The notes beneath the pieces were generated by a model. It worked only from the letters and a program-made list of their open reading frames with translations. It was not told the DNA's origin and did not search any database. DNA of 64,000 nt. Origin: Halovivax asiaticus JCM 14624. GTDB taxonomy: Archaea > Halobacteriota > Halobacteria > Halobacteriales > Natrialbaceae. Location: NCBI RefSeq assembly GCF_000337515.1, contig NZ_AOIQ01000006.1, positions 254,265 to 318,264 of the forward strand. Reading direction: 5' to 3'. Positions 5,749 through 55,869 of this stretch are shown one piece after another. A program made the translations under genes and the position numbers. Position 1 is the stretch's first letter; every line of letters starts with the position of its first letter.

Positions 5749-6879
5749 ATGTCTGCAGCCGAATCGTCCCGGCCGTGGCTCGCCCCCGAGGTTTTTCCCA
5801 CCCAGGCCCGTACGTCCAGCAACCAGATGAGTTCCGGCTCCCCTTCACCAGCACTGTCGTCCGATCTCGACTGGTGTTTCGACGCGGTCCACGGCGTCTC
5901 GAGAACCTTTTCGATCACGATCGACCGCCTCGAAGAGCCGATGGCACGCCAGATCTGCGTCGGCTATCTCCTCTGTCGGATCGCCGATACGATCGAAGAT
6001 GCCGGTCACGTTCCCCCGTCCGCCCAGTCCGACCTCCTCACCGAGTACGATAGACTGTTGGATCCGACCGACGAGTACACCGTCGACCAGTTCGTGGACG
6101 CGGTCAGCCCGTGGCTCCCGGAGCCGGACGAGCGATCCGCCGACTGGACGGTCGTCGCGGAGACCGCGCGAGTCTTTCGGGCGTTCGAGACCCTCGACGA
6201 CGAACCTCGCGAGCTCATGCGCGACCCGATCCGGGAACTGGTCGGCGGCATGGCGATGTTCACCGAACGCTACGCCGACGAGGGTGGACTTCGTCTCCAG
6301 ACGATAGACGAACTCGAAGAATATTGCTGGTACGCCGCCGGCACCGTCGGGACGCTCATCACGGAACTCCTCGTCCGTGATAGTTCCCCAGAACGCACCG
6401 CGGAGCTCAGGGACAACGCACGGTCGTTCGCCCTGTTGTTGCAGCTCGTCAACATCGCGAAAGACGTCCGGTCGGACTACCACGAAGAGAACAACGTCTA
6501 CCTCCCCGCCGAGTGGCTCGCCGAGGAAGCGGTCGCGCCCGACGCCGTCACCGACACCGACAATCACCAGGAGGTAACCACGGTCGTCCGTCGCGTCGTC
6601 GATCGGGCGGAGCGCTACCTCGACGACGCGCACCGTTACCTCGAAATCCTCCCCGAGCACCGCGGAAACAACCTCTCTGCCTGGGCGATTCCGTATCTAC
6701 TCGCGGTCGGCACCCTCCGAGAACTGCGCCAGCGGTCGAAAGACGTCGTTCGAACGGGTGACGTCAAACTCGCGCGCGAGGAAGTCTACACCGTCATCCA
6801 GCGGTTCGATACCGGCGTTTCTCGAGGGGAACTCGACGAACTGCGCCAGACGATGGCGTCCGAACCGCTCCACCGATAG
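5749..6879 (+). CDS. Squalene/phytoene synthase family protein, squalene synthase-like
   Basis: 376 residues from the ATG at 5749; an ATG at 5827 (MSSGSPSPALSSDLDW) would give 350 residues and is also plausible. Family features are SRTFSITI near the start, the first aspartate-rich motif RIADTIEDAG, the CWYAAGTVG segment, and the second motif NIAKDVRSDYHEENNVYLP. The head-to-head prenyl synthases condense two prenyl diphosphates. The CWYAAGTVG and NNVYLP context is closer to squalene synthases than to the CrtB at 51.6 kb, so I infer farnesyl diphosphate to squalene. Squalene and its derivatives are abundant haloarchaeal neutral lipids. The gene is divergent from acyl-CoA dehydrogenase with only 80 bp between starts. 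Confidence 0.88.
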   Translation: MSAAESSRPWLAPEVFPTQARTSSNQMSSGSPSPALSSDLDWCFDAVHGVSRTFSITIDRLEEPMARQICVGYLLCRIADTIEDAGHVPPSAQSDLLTEYDRLLDPTDEYTVDQFVDAVSPWLPEPDERSADWTVVAETARVFRAFETLDDEPRELMRDPIRELVGGMAMFTERYADEGGLRLQTIDELEEYCWYAAGTVGTLITELLVRDSSPERTAELRDNARSFALLLQLVNIAKDVRSDYHEENNVYLPAEWLAEEAVAPDAVTDTDNHQEVTTVVRRVVDRAERYLDDAHRYLEILPEHRGNNLSAWAIPYLLAVGTLRELRQRSKDVVRTGDVKLAREEVYTVIQRFDTGVSRGELDELRQTMASEPLHR

Positions 6880-9585: not shown

Positions 9586-9966
9586 TCACTCCGGTGGAGA
9601 GACGCCATCAACCGGTGAGACGACGATTTCACCGCTCGCACTGATCGTAACGTCGCACCCTTCGTACGTGAACGAAAGGCGTGCAACTGGTTCGTCGTCC
9701 GTTCCGGAATCTGCCCAGTGAGCAACGAACCGTTCGAGGGCGTCCGGATCGACGACGTCGGTGAGCGGCGCGAGTTCGAGGCGGTCTCGATCCGTCGTTC
9801 GAGCGACGAGCGAGAGAAGGACTGTCAGCACGGGATCGCGCTGGTCGAACGGGATTCGAGCGTAGTACGTCTCGTGGCGCTCGTCCCGGTAGATGGCCGT
9901 CCCATCCACGGTGTCGATACGCCGAGTGTGTCCTCCCCGCTCGTTTCGGACCATCCCACCATACAT
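9586..9966 (-). CDS. HalOD1-domain protein
   Basis: 126 residues from the ATG at 9966; an in-frame start at 9954 is equally possible, and the longer frame upstream runs into an AT-rich promoter. The centre has LTVLLSLVARTTDRDRLELAPLTDVVDPDALERFV and the end FTYEGCDVTISASGEIVVSP, the HalOD1 output-domain layout found only in haloarchaea, often at the end of response regulators. Here it stands alone. Function unknown; presumed protein-protein output module. A second stand-alone copy is at 37366-37677. The upstream 190 bp are AT-rich and carry an inverted Bat-UAS-like element. Confidence 0.8.
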   Translation of the reverse strand: MYGGMVRNERGGHTRRIDTVDGTAIYRDERHETYYARIPFDQRDPVLTVLLSLVARTTDRDRLELAPLTDVVDPDALERFVAHWADSGTDDEPVARLSFTYEGCDVTISASGEIVVSPVDGVSPPE

Positions 9967-10042
9967 AGGTATATGATAACACTTAACACTATCGAGGAAT
10001 GTCACCCGAAACAGGGAGAGTTGCGCACATATCCTGCATTTT

Positions 10043-10057
10043 ACCTCACTAGTTAGT
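10043..10057 (+). promoter_or_regulatory. Bat-UAS-like sequence
   Basis: Reads ACCTCACTAGTTAGT. Compared with the Halobacterium bop-regulon UAS consensus ACCcnactagTTnGG as I recall it, it agrees at 11 of the 13 specified positions. A TATA-like GATATAGC follows at 10060, but no plus-strand gene starts nearby; the divergently placed HalOD1 gene begins about 80 bp away on the other strand. It may be a regulatory site or coincidence. Confidence 0.35.
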
Positions 10058-10111
10058 CGGATATAGCAGAATACGTTGTGAAAACCGACAGCGGGCGATA
10101 CCCAATTTGGC

Positions 10112-10117
10112 AAAAAA
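10112..10117 (-). terminator. Oligo-T stretch after the thermosome gene
   Basis: Six A on the plus strand (T6 on the transcribed strand) 45 nt downstream of the thermosome stop codon, in a locally AT-rich segment; a likely archaeal terminator. Confidence 0.45.
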
Positions 10118-49265: not shown

Positions 49266-49364
49266 GGTCCAACCGATTCCTGCTGGCCGAGAACACCACG
49301 AACGTGTTCGCGTTCTCCTACATATGGATTCGCCAGCGGGCTCGATCCATCGGTCCGGACGGGC

Positions 49365-49395: not shown

Positions 49396-51420
49396 ATGGA
49401 GGACGGAGCGCGACCGACTTACGTCACGTTCTGGGCGGACAGCGCTCGGGACTCGGATCCGGTTCGAGACCACCTGGAGAATACGCCCGACATATCCCTC
49501 ACGACTACCTCCGTCAGAGAAGAAATACCGCCGGATCAGTACGATCGGCTCGACTGTGTGGTATATGCACCCGACTCCCGCTCGAACTGGATCGATCACC
49601 TCGAACAGCTCCGAGAAACGCTACCAGCACTGCCGATCGTGCTCCTCACAGACGACCCCGACGGGGACAGTCTCAGCCGCGCAATTGCGGCCGGCATCGC
49701 CGGGTACGTCGCCCGATCCGCCGACGACGCACCAGCCAGAGTCTACGCCGAGATCGAACGAGTTTCCGCCCCGGATCGTTCGGCGGCCGGCCAACAGACG
49801 CCACGAATGCCACTCGAACAGCTCGACGATCGAGAAGAACGACGCGTCAAAGAACGGGCGATGGACGAGGCCCCGGTTGGGATCGCGATCACCGATCCGG
49901 ATCGGCCCGACAATCCGCTGGTCTACGTCAACGACTCGTTCGAAGCGCTGACCGGCTACAGCCCGTCGGAGACGATCGGACGGAACTGTCGCTTCCTCCA
50001 GGGACCGGAAACAGATCTCGAAGCAATAGCGAAACTCCGGGCCGCAATCGACGCGGCTGAACCGGTCGCCGTCGAGTTGCGGAACTATCGGGCGGACGGC
50101 GAAGTTTTCTGGAACCGTGTCGAGATTGCGCCCGTCACCGAGGACGGACAGGTCACGCACTTCGTCGGCTATCAGACGGACGTGACGGCACGCAAGGAAG
50201 CAGAAATTCGACTCGCGCGCCAACGCGAGACACTCGAAACGGTTCTCGACCGGATCAATGGCCTCCTCAACGACGTGACGAGCGACCTCGTCGAAGCCGA
50301 AGACCGCGACGCCGCCGAACGGGCCGTCTGCGATCGACTCGTCGAAATCGGCGCCTATCAGGCAGCCTGGATCGGGAACCCTGACCTCGCGACCGGCGAG
50401 ATTACGGCTGCGACCGTCTCGACCGACTGGGGGAATCCATCGGACGAAAGTGCTCCCGTAGCGGGCGACGACGACCCGATCGTCGCGGCCGTGACGCGGG
50501 CCGAGGAGACGGGTCGAACGCAACTCGTGACCGGGGCGGCAGCGCTCGACCGAATCGAGGCGGCCGACTGGTACGACGGTGACGGACTCGAAGGGATTGC
50601 CGCTCTCCCACTGTCGAATGGCGAGACGGCGCACGGCGTCCTCTGTGTGTACGCCGGCGAGGAGGGAGCAGTCGCCAACCGGGAAGCGGTCGTCCTCGAA
50701 GCGCTGGCGAGGGCCACGGCGACGACGATAGACGCGATCGAGCGCGGACGACTCCTGCTCGCCGACGAAATCGTCGAACTCGACATCGAGATCACCGATC
50801 CATCGTTCCCGTTCGTCACGCTCGCCGAACGCGCCGGGCCGACGATTTCCTACGACGGAGCCGTCAGTGCGGACCACGGCCGTGTCCGATTGTTTCTCAC
50901 TATCGACGCCGAACCCGCCGCCGTCTCGGCCGCCGTGGACGCCCTGTCGGCCGTCGCCGAGGCGACGCTGATTCACGAATACGACGAGGGCAACCTCTAC
51001 GAACTGGTGATGAGCGAAACCTCGATCGTCGCCGCGCTCGCGGCCCGGGGAGCGACGACGCGATCGATTTCCGCTGCAGACGGGGCGACCCGTCTAACGG
51101 TCGAAATCTCGAGCGATCGCGACGTACGCGAACTCGTCGACGACATACGAGCGCGGTACGACGGCGTCGAACTGCGTGGCCGACGAGACTGCGATCGACC
51201 ACCGACGACCCGGCAAGAGTACCTGGCCGAACTCGAGAACGCGCTGACCGACAGACAACACCTCGCGCTCCGAATCGCCCACGCGAGCGGGTACTACGAG
51301 TGGAACCGATCGGTCTCGGGCGACGAACTCGCGAGCACGATGGGTGTCGCCCGGTCGACGTACCACCAGCACCGACGGGCCGCCGAGCGCAAACTGGTTT
51401 CGGCGTTCCTCGATCGGTAG
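49396..51420 (+). CDS. bat: Bat-like regulator with LOV photosensor, GAF and HTH-10 domains
   Basis: 674 residues from MEDGARPTYVTFWADSARDS. Residues 1-120 resemble a response-regulator receiver fold but no phosphoacceptor aspartate is obvious. Residues about 157-265 form a PAS domain of LOV type: IGRNCRFLQGPETD holds the flavin-adduct cysteine at about 198, and ELRNYRADGEVFWNR and FVGYQTDVT supply the asparagines and glutamine around the flavin. A GAF domain spans about 300-450 and a Bat-specific middle region about 455-610. The C-terminus LTDRQHLALRIAHASGYYEW with STMGVARSTYHQHRRAAERK is the HTH-10 domain. Bat is the activator of bop and brp in Halobacterium. Here it precedes the carotenoid operon and has the chemistry needed for blue-light sensing. 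Confidence 0.9.
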   Translation: MEDGARPTYVTFWADSARDSDPVRDHLENTPDISLTTTSVREEIPPDQYDRLDCVVYAPDSRSNWIDHLEQLRETLPALPIVLLTDDPDGDSLSRAIAAGIAGYVARSADDAPARVYAEIERVSAPDRSAAGQQTPRMPLEQLDDREERRVKERAMDEAPVGIAITDPDRPDNPLVYVNDSFEALTGYSPSETIGRNCRFLQGPETDLEAIAKLRAAIDAAEPVAVELRNYRADGEVFWNRVEIAPVTEDGQVTHFVGYQTDVTARKEAEIRLARQRETLETVLDRINGLLNDVTSDLVEAEDRDAAERAVCDRLVEIGAYQAAWIGNPDLATGEITAATVSTDWGNPSDESAPVAGDDDPIVAAVTRAEETGRTQLVTGAAALDRIEAADWYDGDGLEGIAALPLSNGETAHGVLCVYAGEEGAVANREAVVLEALARATATTIDAIERGRLLLADEIVELDIEITDPSFPFVTLAERAGPTISYDGAVSADHGRVRLFLTIDAEPAAVSAAVDALSAVAEATLIHEYDEGNLYELVMSETSIVAALAARGATTRSISAADGATRLTVEISSDRDVRELVDDIRARYDGVELRGRRDCDRPPTTRQEYLAELENALTDRQHLALRIAHASGYYEWNRSVSGDELASTMGVARSTYHQHRRAAERKLVSAFLDR

Positions 51421-51519
51421 CGTCACGTCGAACCCGACGTCGACGCGACTTACGACGACAGTCCGGACCGGCGGACCGGATCGAGCGTCCCAACAGTCTT
51501 CGCGGTAAGACACTCACTG

Positions 51520-51529
51520 ACTAGTTAGG
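51520..51529 (+). promoter_or_regulatory. Bat-UAS-like core element upstream of crtB
   Basis: ACTAGTTAGG matches the core of the bop-regulon UAS consensus (actagTTnGG) exactly as I recall it; the ACCcn part of the consensus is not conserved (CACTG). It lies directly upstream of a TATA box, at about the spacing seen in the bop promoter. This is the candidate site through which the adjacent Bat-like protein would control the operon. Confidence 0.55.
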
Positions 51530-51537
51530 TACACCCC

Positions 51538-51546
51538 TGTTTATCC
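51538..51546 (+). promoter_or_regulatory. TATA box of the crtB-crtD-lyeJ-cruF operon
   Basis: TGTTTATCC centred 48 bp before the crtB ATG, predicting a leader of about 20 nt. A GGGG-caata-CCCC hairpin (51567-51579) falls in or at the start of this leader. Confidence 0.5.
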
Positions 51547-51589
51547 CGCGGGCCGTGGTACGTCGTGGGGCAATACCCCGCGTATCCGC

Positions 51590-52699
51590 ATGATCGACGC
51601 CGAAAACCTAGAGCGAAGCAAGGCCATCCAGCAACGGACCGGACGGACGTTCCACCTCGCGACGCGCCTGCTCCCCGAGCGGATCAGGCACGCGACGTAC
51701 GTCCTGTACGCGTTCTTCCGCATCGCGGACGACGTGGTGGACGACCCGGATCCGCCGCCAGCCGAGCGACAGCTCGCCGAACTCGAGCGAATTCGCGAGA
51801 GCGCACTCGGCACGCGCCAGACGAACGATCCCGTCCTGGAGGCGTTCCTGACGGTCCGTGACCGGTACGACATTCCCGACCAGGAGATCGACGAGTTCGT
51901 CGACGCGATGGCGCGTGACGTCTCGACCGACCGGTACGAGACGCACGACGAACTGGCGGGCTACCTCAGGGGATCTTCCGTCGCCGTGGCGAACATGATG
52001 CTGTGCGTGATGGATCCGGACGACAGTGAGGCGGCCCGCCCACACGCGAAAGCACTTGCCGAGGCCCTGCAGTTGACCAACTTTCTCCGGGACGTCCGCG
52101 AGGACGTCTGCGAGTACGATCGGATCTACCTTCCGCGTGCGCGCCGCGAGGCATTCGGCGTCAGCGAGACGCAGATTGTCAACCTGGAGAGTTCTCCCGA
52201 GTTCGAGGCGCTGATCCGGGACGAACTGGCCCGAACGGAACGGCGTTACGAGACCGGGGTCGATGGGATCACCTACCTCCCGGAGGGGTGCCAGTTCGCC
52301 GTACTACTGGCCGCCGTGCTCTACGCGGATCACCATCGAGCGATCCGTGCGCAGGGGTGTGACGTCCTCTCCGAACGGCCCTCACTCAGCATGCCGCGCC
52401 GACTGTTCCTCGCGGCGAAGACCTGGTGGCACTGGCGACGTACCGACGACCCTCGCACCGCGTTCGACGCGGCGAGTTCGATACCAACCCGTGACGGGGG
52501 AGACCGGCCGATAGCATCCGAATACCGCTCCGCAGCTGCTGGTCCGAACGAAACCGACCAGCCACCCCGGTCCACTGACGTGCGCCGACGCGACGAACGA
52601 ACACCCCGGTCCACCGCCGACAATTCCCTGGGTCGACCGACGGTGCGACGGGTCGTTTCGCGTGTACGCGCAGCGATTTTCCCGGGGGAGTCCAAATGA
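51590..52699 (+). CDS. crtB: Phytoene synthase
   Basis: 369 residues. The two aspartate-rich motifs are YAFFRIADDVVDDPD and LTNFLRDVREDVCEYDRIYLP, exactly the DxxxD pattern of phytoene synthases. It condenses two geranylgeranyl diphosphates head-to-head into phytoene, the first committed step to carotenoids. From about residue 300 to the end there is a polar, low-complexity, Arg/Ser/Thr/Pro-rich extension (SSIPTRDGGDRPIASEYRSA) not needed for catalysis. It overlaps crtD by 4 bp (ATGA), so the genes are translationally coupled. It differs from the squalene synthase-like protein at 5.7 kb. Confidence 0.95.
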   Translation: MIDAENLERSKAIQQRTGRTFHLATRLLPERIRHATYVLYAFFRIADDVVDDPDPPPAERQLAELERIRESALGTRQTNDPVLEAFLTVRDRYDIPDQEIDEFVDAMARDVSTDRYETHDELAGYLRGSSVAVANMMLCVMDPDDSEAARPHAKALAEALQLTNFLRDVREDVCEYDRIYLPRARREAFGVSETQIVNLESSPEFEALIRDELARTERRYETGVDGITYLPEGCQFAVLLAAVLYADHHRAIRAQGCDVLSERPSLSMPRRLFLAAKTWWHWRRTDDPRTAFDAASSIPTRDGGDRPIASEYRSAAAGPNETDQPPRSTDVRRRDERTPRSTADNSLGRPTVRRVVSRVRAAIFPGESK

Positions 52700-54207
52700 C
52701 CGCACCGACCAGCGTGCAAGATCGGTCGGTCTGCGTGGTCGGCGGCGGATTCGGTGGGCTGGCGACGGCGTGTTACCTGGCCGACGCCGGCTTCGACATG
52801 ACGGTCGTCGAGAAGACCGACCAACTCGGGGGTCGTGCGAGCACACTCGAACGAGACGGCTTCACGTTCGACATGGGACCGTCGTGGTACCTCATGCCCG
52901 ACGTGTTCGAGCGATTCTTCGCGGCGTTCGACCGGACGCCGACGGACTACTACGACCTGACGCACCTGAACCCACACTACCGCATCTTCTGGAAGGATGG
53001 CGAGCGGATGGACGTCACCGAAGACATCGACGCGACGAAACGCACGTTCGAACGGTACGAGACGGGTGCCGGGGACGCGCTCGAACGATACCTCGCGAAG
53101 GCGGCCGAGACGTACGAGATCGGGATGGAACACTTCGTCTACACGGACCGGCCGCGGTTCCGGGACTACGTCGACGTGGACGTTCTCCGAAACGCGAACG
53201 GGCTCTCCTTCCTCGGGTCCATGGAGGACCACGTCGCCGAGTACTTCGAACACCCGAAACTCAGACAGGTCGTCCAGTACTCGCTGGTCTTCCTCGGCGG
53301 CAGTCCGACGAACACGCCGGCGCTGTACAACCTCATGAGCCACGTCGACTTCGGCCTCGGCGTTCACTATCCGGACGGCGGCATGGGCGCCGTCGTCGAC
53401 GCGCTCGTCGAACTCGGCACGGAGCTGGGGGTCGACTACCGGACCGGCTTCGAAGTGAGTGCCATCGACGGCGGCCGCGGTTCCTTCACCGTCCACGACC
53501 ATGCCGACTCGATCGAGGCCGACCTCGTGGTGAGCGACGCCGATTATGCACACACGGAACAGCAACTTCTCGCGGTCGACGACCGCCAGTACGACGCCGA
53601 GTACTGGCACGAACGAACGTACGCTCCGTCGGCGTTCCTCTGTTATCTGGGCGTCGAAGGCGACCTCGACGAGTTAGCCCACCACTCGCTCGTCCTCCCG
53701 ACGGCCTGGGACGGCCACTTCCAACAGATCTTCGACCAGCCGGCGTGGCCGGACGATCCTGCCTACTACCTGTGTGCACCCTCGAAAACCGATGACACCG
53801 TCGCCCCGGACGGCCACAGCAGCTGCTTCCTCCTCGTTCCCATCGCACCCGGGCTCCCCGATGGACCGGCCGTTCGCGACAGATATCGCGACCAGATTCT
53901 CGCGGACGTCGCGGCAAACACGGGCGAAGATCTCAGGGACCGGATCGTCGTCGAGGAGACGTTTTCCGTCTCGGACTTCGCCACCCGGTACAACAGCCGT
54001 GAAGGGACGGCACTCGGCCTCGCCCACACGCTCCGGCAGACGGGACCGCTCCGTCCTGGGCATCGCTCCAGCGCGCTCGACGGTCTCTACTTCACCGGCT
54101 CGTACACGACGCCGGGGATCGGGGTACCGATGTGTCTCATCAGCGGCGAGCACACGGCTGCCGCGGTCATTGAAGACGAACGCGCTCGAAACCCCCACGT
54201 CGTATGA
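52696..54207 (+). CDS. crtD: Carotenoid desaturase (CrtD/CrtI type)
   Basis: 503 residues. VGGGFGGLATACYLADAG is the FAD Rossmann motif, followed by VVEKTDQLGGRASTLERDGF, and LDGLYFTGSYTTPGIGVPMCLISGEH near the C-terminus is the family's second FAD contact. Both phytoene desaturase (CrtI) and carotenoid 3,4-desaturase (CrtD) share this architecture. In Haloarcula japonica the order crtD-lyeJ-cruF encodes bacterioruberin synthesis, and the same order is found here, so CrtD is the better guess; a bifunctional CrtI role cannot be excluded. It overlaps both neighbours by 4 bp. Confidence 0.9.
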   Translation: MTAPTSVQDRSVCVVGGGFGGLATACYLADAGFDMTVVEKTDQLGGRASTLERDGFTFDMGPSWYLMPDVFERFFAAFDRTPTDYYDLTHLNPHYRIFWKDGERMDVTEDIDATKRTFERYETGAGDALERYLAKAAETYEIGMEHFVYTDRPRFRDYVDVDVLRNANGLSFLGSMEDHVAEYFEHPKLRQVVQYSLVFLGGSPTNTPALYNLMSHVDFGLGVHYPDGGMGAVVDALVELGTELGVDYRTGFEVSAIDGGRGSFTVHDHADSIEADLVVSDADYAHTEQQLLAVDDRQYDAEYWHERTYAPSAFLCYLGVEGDLDELAHHSLVLPTAWDGHFQQIFDQPAWPDDPAYYLCAPSKTDDTVAPDGHSSCFLLVPIAPGLPDGPAVRDRYRDQILADVAANTGEDLRDRIVVEETFSVSDFATRYNSREGTALGLAHTLRQTGPLRPGHRSSALDGLYFTGSYTTPGIGVPMCLISGEHTAAAVIEDERARNPHVV

Positions 54208-55040
54208 ATCGCGTCCGCCGATTGCTCACGCGATCCCGACCGCTGTTCTGGCTCTACCTGGCTGGACCAGCGCTCGTCGGGGCGGTGTACGCAGCAGACT
54301 CGCCATCGACGCTCACGTCACCCGTCGTGATCGGGATCGTCTGCTACTTCCTGCTACCGGCGAACCTCTTCCTCTACGGCGTCAACGACGTCTTCGACGC
54401 CGACGTCGACGCCGAGAACCCCAAGAAGGAGGGGATCGAGACGCGCTACGAGGGCGAACGACTCACGATCGTCGCGGTCGTCGCCAGTGCCATCGTCGGG
54501 TTCGCACTGGTTCCCGTCCTCTCACCGCCGGCGACGTACTACCTCGGTGGGTTCCTCTTCCTCGGTGCAGCCTACAGCGTCCCACCGATTCGATTCAAGA
54601 CCAGACCGCTGCTCGACTCGGTCTCGAACGGCCTATACGTGCTCCCCGCTGGCGTCACCTACGCCACCATCGCTGGTACGCACCCGCCAGCACTCGCGGT
54701 CCTCGGTGGCTGGTTCTGGGCGATGGGCATGCACACGTTCTCGGCGATCCCGGACATCGATCCCGACCGCCAAGCCGGGATCCGGACGACGGCGACCGTC
54801 CTCGGCCAGCCTGCAGCCCTCGGCTACTGCGTTGCGTGCTGGGCGCTCGCTGCGGTAACGTTCGGATTCCTGGACGTCCGAATCGGGGCGCTCCTGCTCG
54901 TCTACCCGCTCATCGTCGGCGCCATCGCCACGGCGAGCGTGACCGTCTCGCGCGCGTACTGGTGGTTCCCGGCGGTCAACTCGACCGTCGGGATGGTCCT
55001 GACCCTGGGCGGTCTCTGGCGGGTGGTCTATGGATCGTAA
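54204..55040 (+). CDS. lyeJ: Lycopene elongase/1,2-hydratase (UbiA-family prenyltransferase)
   Basis: 278 residues with eight to nine membrane helices. The UbiA-type motif LYGVNDVFDADVDAENPKK (NDxxDxxxD) binds the diphosphate, and SAIPDIDPDRQAGIRT is the second aspartate motif. In haloarchaea the product of this gene attaches C5 (dimethylallyl) units and water to lycopene, giving the C50 skeleton. Synteny with crtD and cruF makes this identification strong. It starts in the ATGA overlap of crtD and overlaps cruF by 11 bp. Confidence 0.92.
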   Translation: MNRVRRLLTRSRPLFWLYLAGPALVGAVYAADSPSTLTSPVVIGIVCYFLLPANLFLYGVNDVFDADVDAENPKKEGIETRYEGERLTIVAVVASAIVGFALVPVLSPPATYYLGGFLFLGAAYSVPPIRFKTRPLLDSVSNGLYVLPAGVTYATIAGTHPPALAVLGGWFWAMGMHTFSAIPDIDPDRQAGIRTTATVLGQPAALGYCVACWALAAVTFGFLDVRIGALLLVYPLIVGAIATASVTVSRAYWWFPAVNSTVGMVLTLGGLWRVVYGS

Positions 55041-55869
55041 CCGCCGGTCACAAACCGAGCGCCTGGATCGGTTCGTCCGCGACAACCGGGTGACGATCGC
55101 CGTCGTCTTCCCCCTCGTCGGGGCGGCCCTGCTCGTCGCCAGCGCGGAGGGATTGCTGTGGGACCCGCTCGCGTTCAACCCCTTTCTCGTCCTCGTCGGT
55201 ACCGCCGTCATGCGACTGCCGCTCATCGCAGGGCTTCTCCCGGTCGTAGACAGGCGTCTCGTCGGCGTCCTCATCGCGTTGACTGGCTACACCTACGCGA
55301 TCGAGTACGTCGGGCTGACCACCGGCTGGCCCTATGGGGAGTTTCAGTACACCGTGGCGCTCGGGCCGATGCTGGGTGGCGTCCCACTCGCGCTGCCCCT
55401 GTTCTTCCTCCCGCTCGTCCTGAACGCCACGTTACTCTCGACGCTCCTGACGGACTCGGAAACGACCAACTGGCCGGTCCGGGTCGTCGGGGCCGTCCTC
55501 GCCGTCATCACCATCGACCTCGTCCTCGATCCGGCCGCCGTCTCGATCGGCTTCTGGGCGTACGACGGCGCCGGCCCGTACTACGGCGTGCCACTCTCGA
55601 ACTATCTCGGCTGGCTCCTGAGCGGGACGATCGCCGTCGTCGCACTCGAATACGGACTCCGGACCGACCAGCTCCGGACGCGCCTGCGATCGTGTGAGTT
55701 CGCCCTCGACGACCTCGTCAGCTTCGTCGTGCTCTGGGGTGGTATCAACGCACTCTACGGCAACTGGATCCCCGTCAGTCTCGCGGGCGCCCTCGTCGGC
55801 GCGCTTCTCTGGACCGGCCGAATCGATCTCACGACCGACAGCCATCGACTCCCGACTGGCAACCGATAA
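55030..55869 (+). CDS. cruF: Bisanhydrobacterioruberin hydratase (CruF)
   Basis: 279 residues, an integral membrane protein with about eight helices: TIAVVFPLVGAALLVASAE, LVGTAVMRLPLIAGLLPVV, and later LGWLLSGTIAVVALEYGL. The family (DUF422) is the C50 carotenoid 2'',3''-hydratase, which adds the terminal hydroxyl groups of bacterioruberin. GYTYAIEYVGLTTGWPYGEFQYTV and SIGFWAYDGAGPYYGVPLSNYLGW are the conserved blocks. It begins inside the end of lyeJ, the fourth gene of a translationally coupled operon, and no further gene follows on this strand before the tRNA. Confidence 0.93.
   Translation: MDRNRRSQTERLDRFVRDNRVTIAVVFPLVGAALLVASAEGLLWDPLAFNPFLVLVGTAVMRLPLIAGLLPVVDRRLVGVLIALTGYTYAIEYVGLTTGWPYGEFQYTVALGPMLGGVPLALPLFFLPLVLNATLLSTLLTDSETTNWPVRVVGAVLAVITIDLVLDPAAVSIGFWAYDGAGPYYGVPLSNYLGWLLSGTIAVVALEYGLRTDQLRTRLRSCEFALDDLVSFVVLWGGINALYGNWIPVSLAGALVGALLWTGRIDLTTDSHRLPTGNR

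Follow-up and report, generated by a model that had tools for sequence, protein, structure and literature searches.

The closest described system is the Bat regulon of Halobacterium salinarum, in which Bat activates bop and crtB1 (PMC1502140, PMC3184054) and a Bat upstream activating site (UAS) is shared by bop, brp, bat, and crtB1 (PMC1502140). Low oxygen is the main signal with which Halobacterium Bat has been associated, and one study did not regard a direct response of Bat to light as definitively established (PMC4682037). As PMC6212597 reports, bacterio-opsin acts as an inhibitor of lycopene elongase in Halobacterium, so that the bop regulon of that organism works against bacterioruberin. 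Two further proteins are relevant to the sensor. BAT-LOV* of Halorubrum is a LOV-like domain of a Bat that also has REC, GAF, and HTH domains; flavin binding was shown for it, but proline replaces its adduct-forming cysteine (PMC4682037). ALovD-1 from Lake Diamante is a haloarchaeal LOV domain with a demonstrated photocycle at high salt, although neither Bat nor carotenoid genes are connected with it in that paper's main text (PMC12202551). The regulation of the desaturase gene crtD has been described as largely unknown (PMC13358004). Bat, its UAS, Bat control of crtB1, and LOV domains in archaea (PMC12202551) were already known; new here are a LOV-Bat and its candidate site on a complete C50 carotenoid operon, the recurrence of that arrangement, and the differing ancestries of the regulator and its operon. 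A search of the open-licence literature, with subscription journals mostly outside its scope, brought up no publication that connects Bat with the bacterioruberin operon.

The window analysed here is a 64,000-nucleotide stretch of Halovivax asiaticus JCM 14624 DNA. It contains a bat gene whose stop codon lies 169 bp before the start of crtB, followed by crtD, lyeJ, and cruF. The features are as follows.

49396..51420, + strand, bat, LOV-containing Bat-type transcription regulator of 674 aa; the open frame reaches back to an ATG at 49324
49417..49785, + strand, divergent receiver-like N-terminal domain of Bat (residues 8-130), alternating beta/alpha by AlphaFold2 secondary structure
49828..50181, + strand, LOV domain of Bat (residues 145-262), from PAS profile, structure matches, and predicted model
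49987..49989, + strand, codon of the predicted adduct-forming cysteine C198 (GRNCRFLQG), from LOV residue alignment
50185..50295, + strand, long helix from LOV to GAF (residues 264-300), probable signalling helix, from the predicted model
50305..50760, + strand, GAF domain of Bat, from Pfam GAF_2 and predicted model
50767..51195, + strand, BAT domain of Bat (PF15915), from Pfam and predicted model
51211..51414, + strand, HTH_10 DNA-binding domain of Bat (PF04967) with recognition helix RSTYHQHRRAAERK, from Pfam and predicted model
51516..51529, + strand, predicted Bat-type upstream activating site ACTGACTAGTTAGG (consensus CCYNACTAGTNRGG), from promoter comparison
51540..51545, + strand, TATA-like element TTTATC of the crtB promoter, from the sequence and its conservation in the two congeners with the same layout
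51590..52699, + strand, crtB, phytoene synthase, SQS_PSY family
52696..54207, + strand, crtD (CrtID), phytoene desaturase/3,4-desaturase, NF058655 above cut-off
54204..55040, + strand, lyeJ, lycopene elongase/hydratase, UbiA family, NF009516 above cut-off
55030..55869, + strand, cruF, bisanhydrobacterioruberin hydratase, NF041333 above cut-off

Two start candidates share the bat stop at 51420, the ATG at 49396 (674 aa) and the first ATG of the frame at 49324 (698 aa). The pigment genes overlap by 4 bp (crtB/crtD, 52696-52699), 4 bp (crtD/lyeJ, 54204-54207), and 11 bp (lyeJ/cruF, 55030-55040), and both these overlaps and the 169-bp spacing match exactly the layout given in an earlier note on this DNA. 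On the basis of open reading frames and family profiles, crtB, CrtID, lyeJ, and cruF form a contiguous bacterioruberin operon. CrtID is the most fitting name for the desaturase, predicted to be a bifunctional phytoene/3,4-desaturase, and the operon by itself would therefore span the route from GGPP to bacterioruberin.

The Bat protein showed the Pfam order PAS, GAF_2, BAT (PF15915), and HTH_10, with the GAF, BAT, and HTH_10 matches all above cut-off. Its N-terminus gave no Pfam REC match, and the AlphaFold2 model places five alternating strand/helix units there, mostly with high confidence; a divergent receiver (REC) domain has been described for Bat proteins (PMC5847659). The model runs from this receiver-like region through the LOV domain, a 37-residue helix, and the GAF domain to the BAT and HTH domains, with a mean pLDDT of 83 and a pTM of 0.47 that leave the packing of the domains unsure. 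All ten LOV-defining residues, as listed in PMC4682037, are present (G195, N197, C198, R199, F200, L201, Q202, N230, N240, and Q260), and the full signature claimed in the earlier note, namely the adduct cysteine (C198), two asparagines (N230 and N240), and the glutamine (Q260), was thereby borne out. The cysteine was invariant across 30 aligned LOV-Bats, as were most of the other LOV-defining residues, and it distinguishes the window protein from the proline-containing Halorubrum domain. The nearest solved structures to this region, whether sought by sequence or by fold, were LOV photoreceptors, and Foldseek confirmed the LOV fold by a match to 9vf7_A, a Meiothermus LOV protein (TMt 0.94, of target; rmsd 0.9 Å). 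To judge from its sequence, the light sensor of Bat looks intact. Tyr259, beside Q260, could quench the flavin, which would count against LOV light sensing.

In its architecture (a GAF-BAT-HTH_10 regulator with a PAS/LOV domain and a putative divergent REC), in having crtB under an ACTAGT-centred site, and in its grouping on the tree with brp/opsin-linked Bats, the window system resembles the Halobacterium regulon. It differs in its target, which is a contiguous C50 operon with no opsin or Brp/Blh detected. No opsin (PF01036) was found in the window genome, a 24-contig draft, by a search that detected one in 280 of 391 haloarchaeal genomes, and no Brp/Blh (PF15461) was found in the window genome or in two congeners (G100 and G043) by a search that was positive in genomes G036 and G237. 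Opsin and brp/blh, the mark of the bop regulon proper, were thus not among the targets, and an opsin/retinal link in this draft genome was ruled out by the lack of PF01036 and PF15461 matches. These results uphold the proposal that Bat is tied here to C50 carotenoid genes rather than to retinal genes, and the logic of Halobacterium, in which the bop regulon opposes bacterioruberin, would be reversed at this locus.

The candidate Bat site ACTGACTAGTTAGG lies 10 bp upstream of TTTATC, with the crtB ATG at 51590, and differs from the palindrome CCYNACTAGTNRGG by one mismatch. An ACTAGT-centred site 5' of the TATA box, as found in promoters of the Bat regulon, is present. Congeners G100 and G043 both retain the ACTAGTTAGGTA core and the TATA-like element. 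The exact pattern CNNACTAGTNNGGTA occurred once in each of these two genomes, both times in the crtB promoter, and twice in the window genome; the second of these, on the minus strand at 10042-10056 of the window, was absent from G100 and G043 and was rejected as a conserved target. The consensus of the Halobacterium Bat UAS is reportedly ACCcnactagTTnG, with which the palindrome CCYNACTAGTNRGG agrees.

A test pattern derived solely from the three Halovivax-like promoters, allowing at most one mismatch, was then compared with the other crtB loci. The pattern was present at 25 of the 39 loci with an adjacent Bat (11 of 14 promoters beside LOV-Bats and 14 of 25 beside non-LOV Bats) versus 1 of 43 without one, with a chance expectation of about 0.2-0.6% from shuffled promoters. 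Fisher's test gave p values of 6.5e-10 for site versus adjacent Bat and 2.2e-8 for the LOV-Bats only, uncorrected for kinship and with the non-LOV loci forming one clade. A looser palindrome test found the site at 25 of 38 crtB genes with an adjacent Bat versus 6 of 40 without. The palindrome CCYNACTAGTNRGG occurred 45 times in 1.87 Mb of loci versus 2, 6, and 3 times in simulations, and nearly all of these sites were right 5' of crtB, 5' of an opsin gene next to a LOV-Bat, or directly past the bat stop. Many, though not all, Bat-linked opsin promoters had the site, and several opsin genes next to LOV-Bats were preceded by the palindrome. The promoters of the highest-scoring opsins, which mostly do not adjoin Bat, had no site. 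The test pattern was likewise absent from eight separate crtD promoters. Predicted control of the bacterioruberin operon by Bat is well supported by the sequence evidence, and the motif would let Bat targets be listed across the class.

Among 60 loci of the host family (Natrialbaceae-like), only those of the window genome and of congeners G100 and G043 (the two congeneric Bats being 94% and 59% identical to that of the window) combined a LOV-Bat with contiguous crtB-crtD-lyeJ-cruF downstream of it. The further congeners G361 and G207 lacked both the LOV-Bat and the contiguous operon. The usual family layout places crtD-lyeJ-cruF convergent to crtB, and in somewhat fewer than half of the 60 loci a non-LOV PAS-GAF-BAT-HTH_10 regulator of 540-590 aa is found immediately 5' of crtB. 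Where the family has a crtB-linked regulator, it nearly always belongs to this type, which resembles the window Bat in its position and, in most cases, in having the same site, but differs in forming a separate single clade without the LOV residues. Inheritance of the LOV-Bat/operon linkage as a family trait was ruled out, since the relatives use a non-LOV regulator or none. The combination of LOV-Bat, site, and contiguous operon recurs in other families, including Halarchaeum rubridurum (two copies), H. nitratireducens, strain HArc-gm2, and several metagenome bins, and H. acidiphilum has the same arrangement with a broken Bat frame. One host-family genome (L188) has a LOV-Bat/crtB/crtD/lyeJ set in addition to an ordinary crtB locus, and further genomes have a LOV-Bat with crtB alone, among them a plasmid of Halorussus aquaticus (L297). 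Because the arrangement is kept in two congeners and recurs in other families, chance was ruled out as its origin. The synteny comparison called for by the earlier note favours a real Bat-carotenoid linkage here but not one peculiar to this locus, since Bat beside crtB is widespread.

The window Bat and those of the two congeners fell within an 11-row clade (100/99) together with Bats that adjoin opsin genes and, in the loci examined for it, also brp; the crtB-linked LOV-Bats of the Halarchaeum type and the single clade of non-LOV crtB-linked Bats lay elsewhere on the tree. A topology uniting the crtB-linked LOV-Bats of the main clade with those of Halovivax was rejected (AU p = 0.012, a value that is indicative because the group was named after the first tree), and the Bat tree calls for at least two changes to account for the LOV-Bat/crtB linkage. 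The CrtD proteins of contiguous operons, that of the window included, formed one clade (97), and in a FastTree analysis a branch with support 90 separated the CrtB proteins of contiguous operons and of most LOV-Bat-linked loci from host-family CrtB. Since CrtB and CrtD group with those of contiguous operons and Bat groups with Bats of bop/brp loci, the bacterioruberin operon appears to be a transferred one that is paired with a Bat of the bop type; in the simplest reading, the operon moved between families and its regulator in Halovivax would be a bop-type Bat. At about even odds, haloarchaea may possess a modular light/redox cassette, consisting of a Bat gene, a palindromic site after the bat stop, and then a target, in which sensor and target have been exchanged in evolution; in Halovivax a bop-type LOV-Bat would have been placed on a horizontally acquired operon as a direct light switch for a photoprotective pigment. 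If so, a regulator of the proton-pump pigment was turned into one acting on bacterioruberin, which reddens brines and protects haloarchaea from light.

The Bat gene and the conserved site before the operon suggest that light and/or oxygen may control the pigment directly. Our main reading, to which we assign a probability of roughly two in three, is that the LOV-Bat directly controls the adjacent four-gene bacterioruberin operon, with blue light sensed through the LOV flavin and a likely further input from oxygen/redox. A probable Bat dimer would bind the near-palindromic site at 51516-51529 just 5' of the TATA-like element and promote transcription of crtB-crtD-lyeJ-cruF into a single mRNA. 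The state of a LOV flavin would change under blue light through a cysteine adduct at C198, and the signal would run along helix 264-300 to the GAF, BAT, and HTH domains. The locus makes a small testable unit: its Bat retains the LOV cysteine, the site is defined, the four pigment genes offer a read-out that can be seen by eye, and no opsin was detected in the window genome to confuse the light response.

The main rival to blue-light input is redox sensing alone, in which Bat would still control the operon through the site but the signal would be oxygen/redox, received via the flavin and/or the GAF domain, with light playing a minor part. This rival stems from the response of Halobacterium Bat to low oxygen (PMC3184054, PMC2253796) and from the change of shape that a cysteine-less Bat LOV domain undergoes on flavin reduction (PMC4682037), and most crtB-linked Bats of the host family have no LOV domain. 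A pure redox sensor, however, would need neither the cysteine that is invariant in 30 LOV-Bats nor the other flavin-pocket residues kept with it, and we regard this alternative as unlikely, if the most serious of those considered. Much less probable is that Bat represses the operon until a change in light or redox state relieves the repression. The sequence cannot tell the direction of control, but the site precedes the TATA-like element, a position from which activators act, and neither overlaps nor follows it, and Halobacterium Bat is an activator (PMC3184054, PMC1502140).

Slightly more doubtful still is an incidental linkage, with Bat acting elsewhere and another HTH_10 protein using the site. 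With 35 HTH_10 matches in the window genome, a protein other than Bat could bind there, and a site with no adjacent Bat was seen at one crtB locus in the strict test (L129) and at a few more in the looser test (e.g., L106 and L136). Against these cases, the site tracks an adjacent Bat across families, by the association given above that is uncorrected for kinship, and the linkage of LOV-Bat to crtB needs more than a single change on the tree. Direct control by the adjacent LOV-Bat is the reading that we prefer. Bats without a LOV domain also sit on the site, and light would thus be no general requirement of the module.

Each of the congeners G100 and G043, in which LOV-Bat precedes the contiguous crtB-crtD-lyeJ-cruF genes as in the window, encodes one divergent opsin (loci L232, 1423-2313, minus strand, and L231), and the retinal lysine of helix G is present in the L232 protein. 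Brp/Blh (PF15461) was searched for in both genomes and none was found, despite the opsin in each.

The window contains the Halovivax-type Bat site a second time as an exact match, at 10042-10056 (minus strand), within the 5' part of a short ORF (9586-10113, minus strand) whose product looks like a HalOD1-type protein; this copy has no counterpart in G100 or G043. Besides crtB, the window encodes another squalene/phytoene synthase family protein (5749-6879), which is probably a squalene synthase.

Other genes also follow the site. At loci L166, L168, L171, and L180, from another family, LOV-Bat and the site are followed by a gene for a Tat-signal protein, a possible Bat target, with two repeated domains that resemble DUF4397. 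At L161, L164, L165, and L178 the site is followed by small genes for zinc-finger proteins of the CPxCG type, which recall Brz, and one of these genes, with its site, sits between LOV-Bat and crtB. The Natrialbaceae-like family of the host contains a large clade of LOV-HTH_10 proteins (L186, L187, L279, L290, and similar) with a different recognition helix (RPTFHEH); their genes have no adjoining site and are unlinked to crt or opsin genes.

The LOV-Bat copy of Halarchaeum acidiphilum (L334, 5065-7553) is broken into two frames, and the site behind it appears intact. A plasmid of Halorussus aquaticus (L297) bears LOV-Bat, the site, and crtB, a location consistent with a mobile module.
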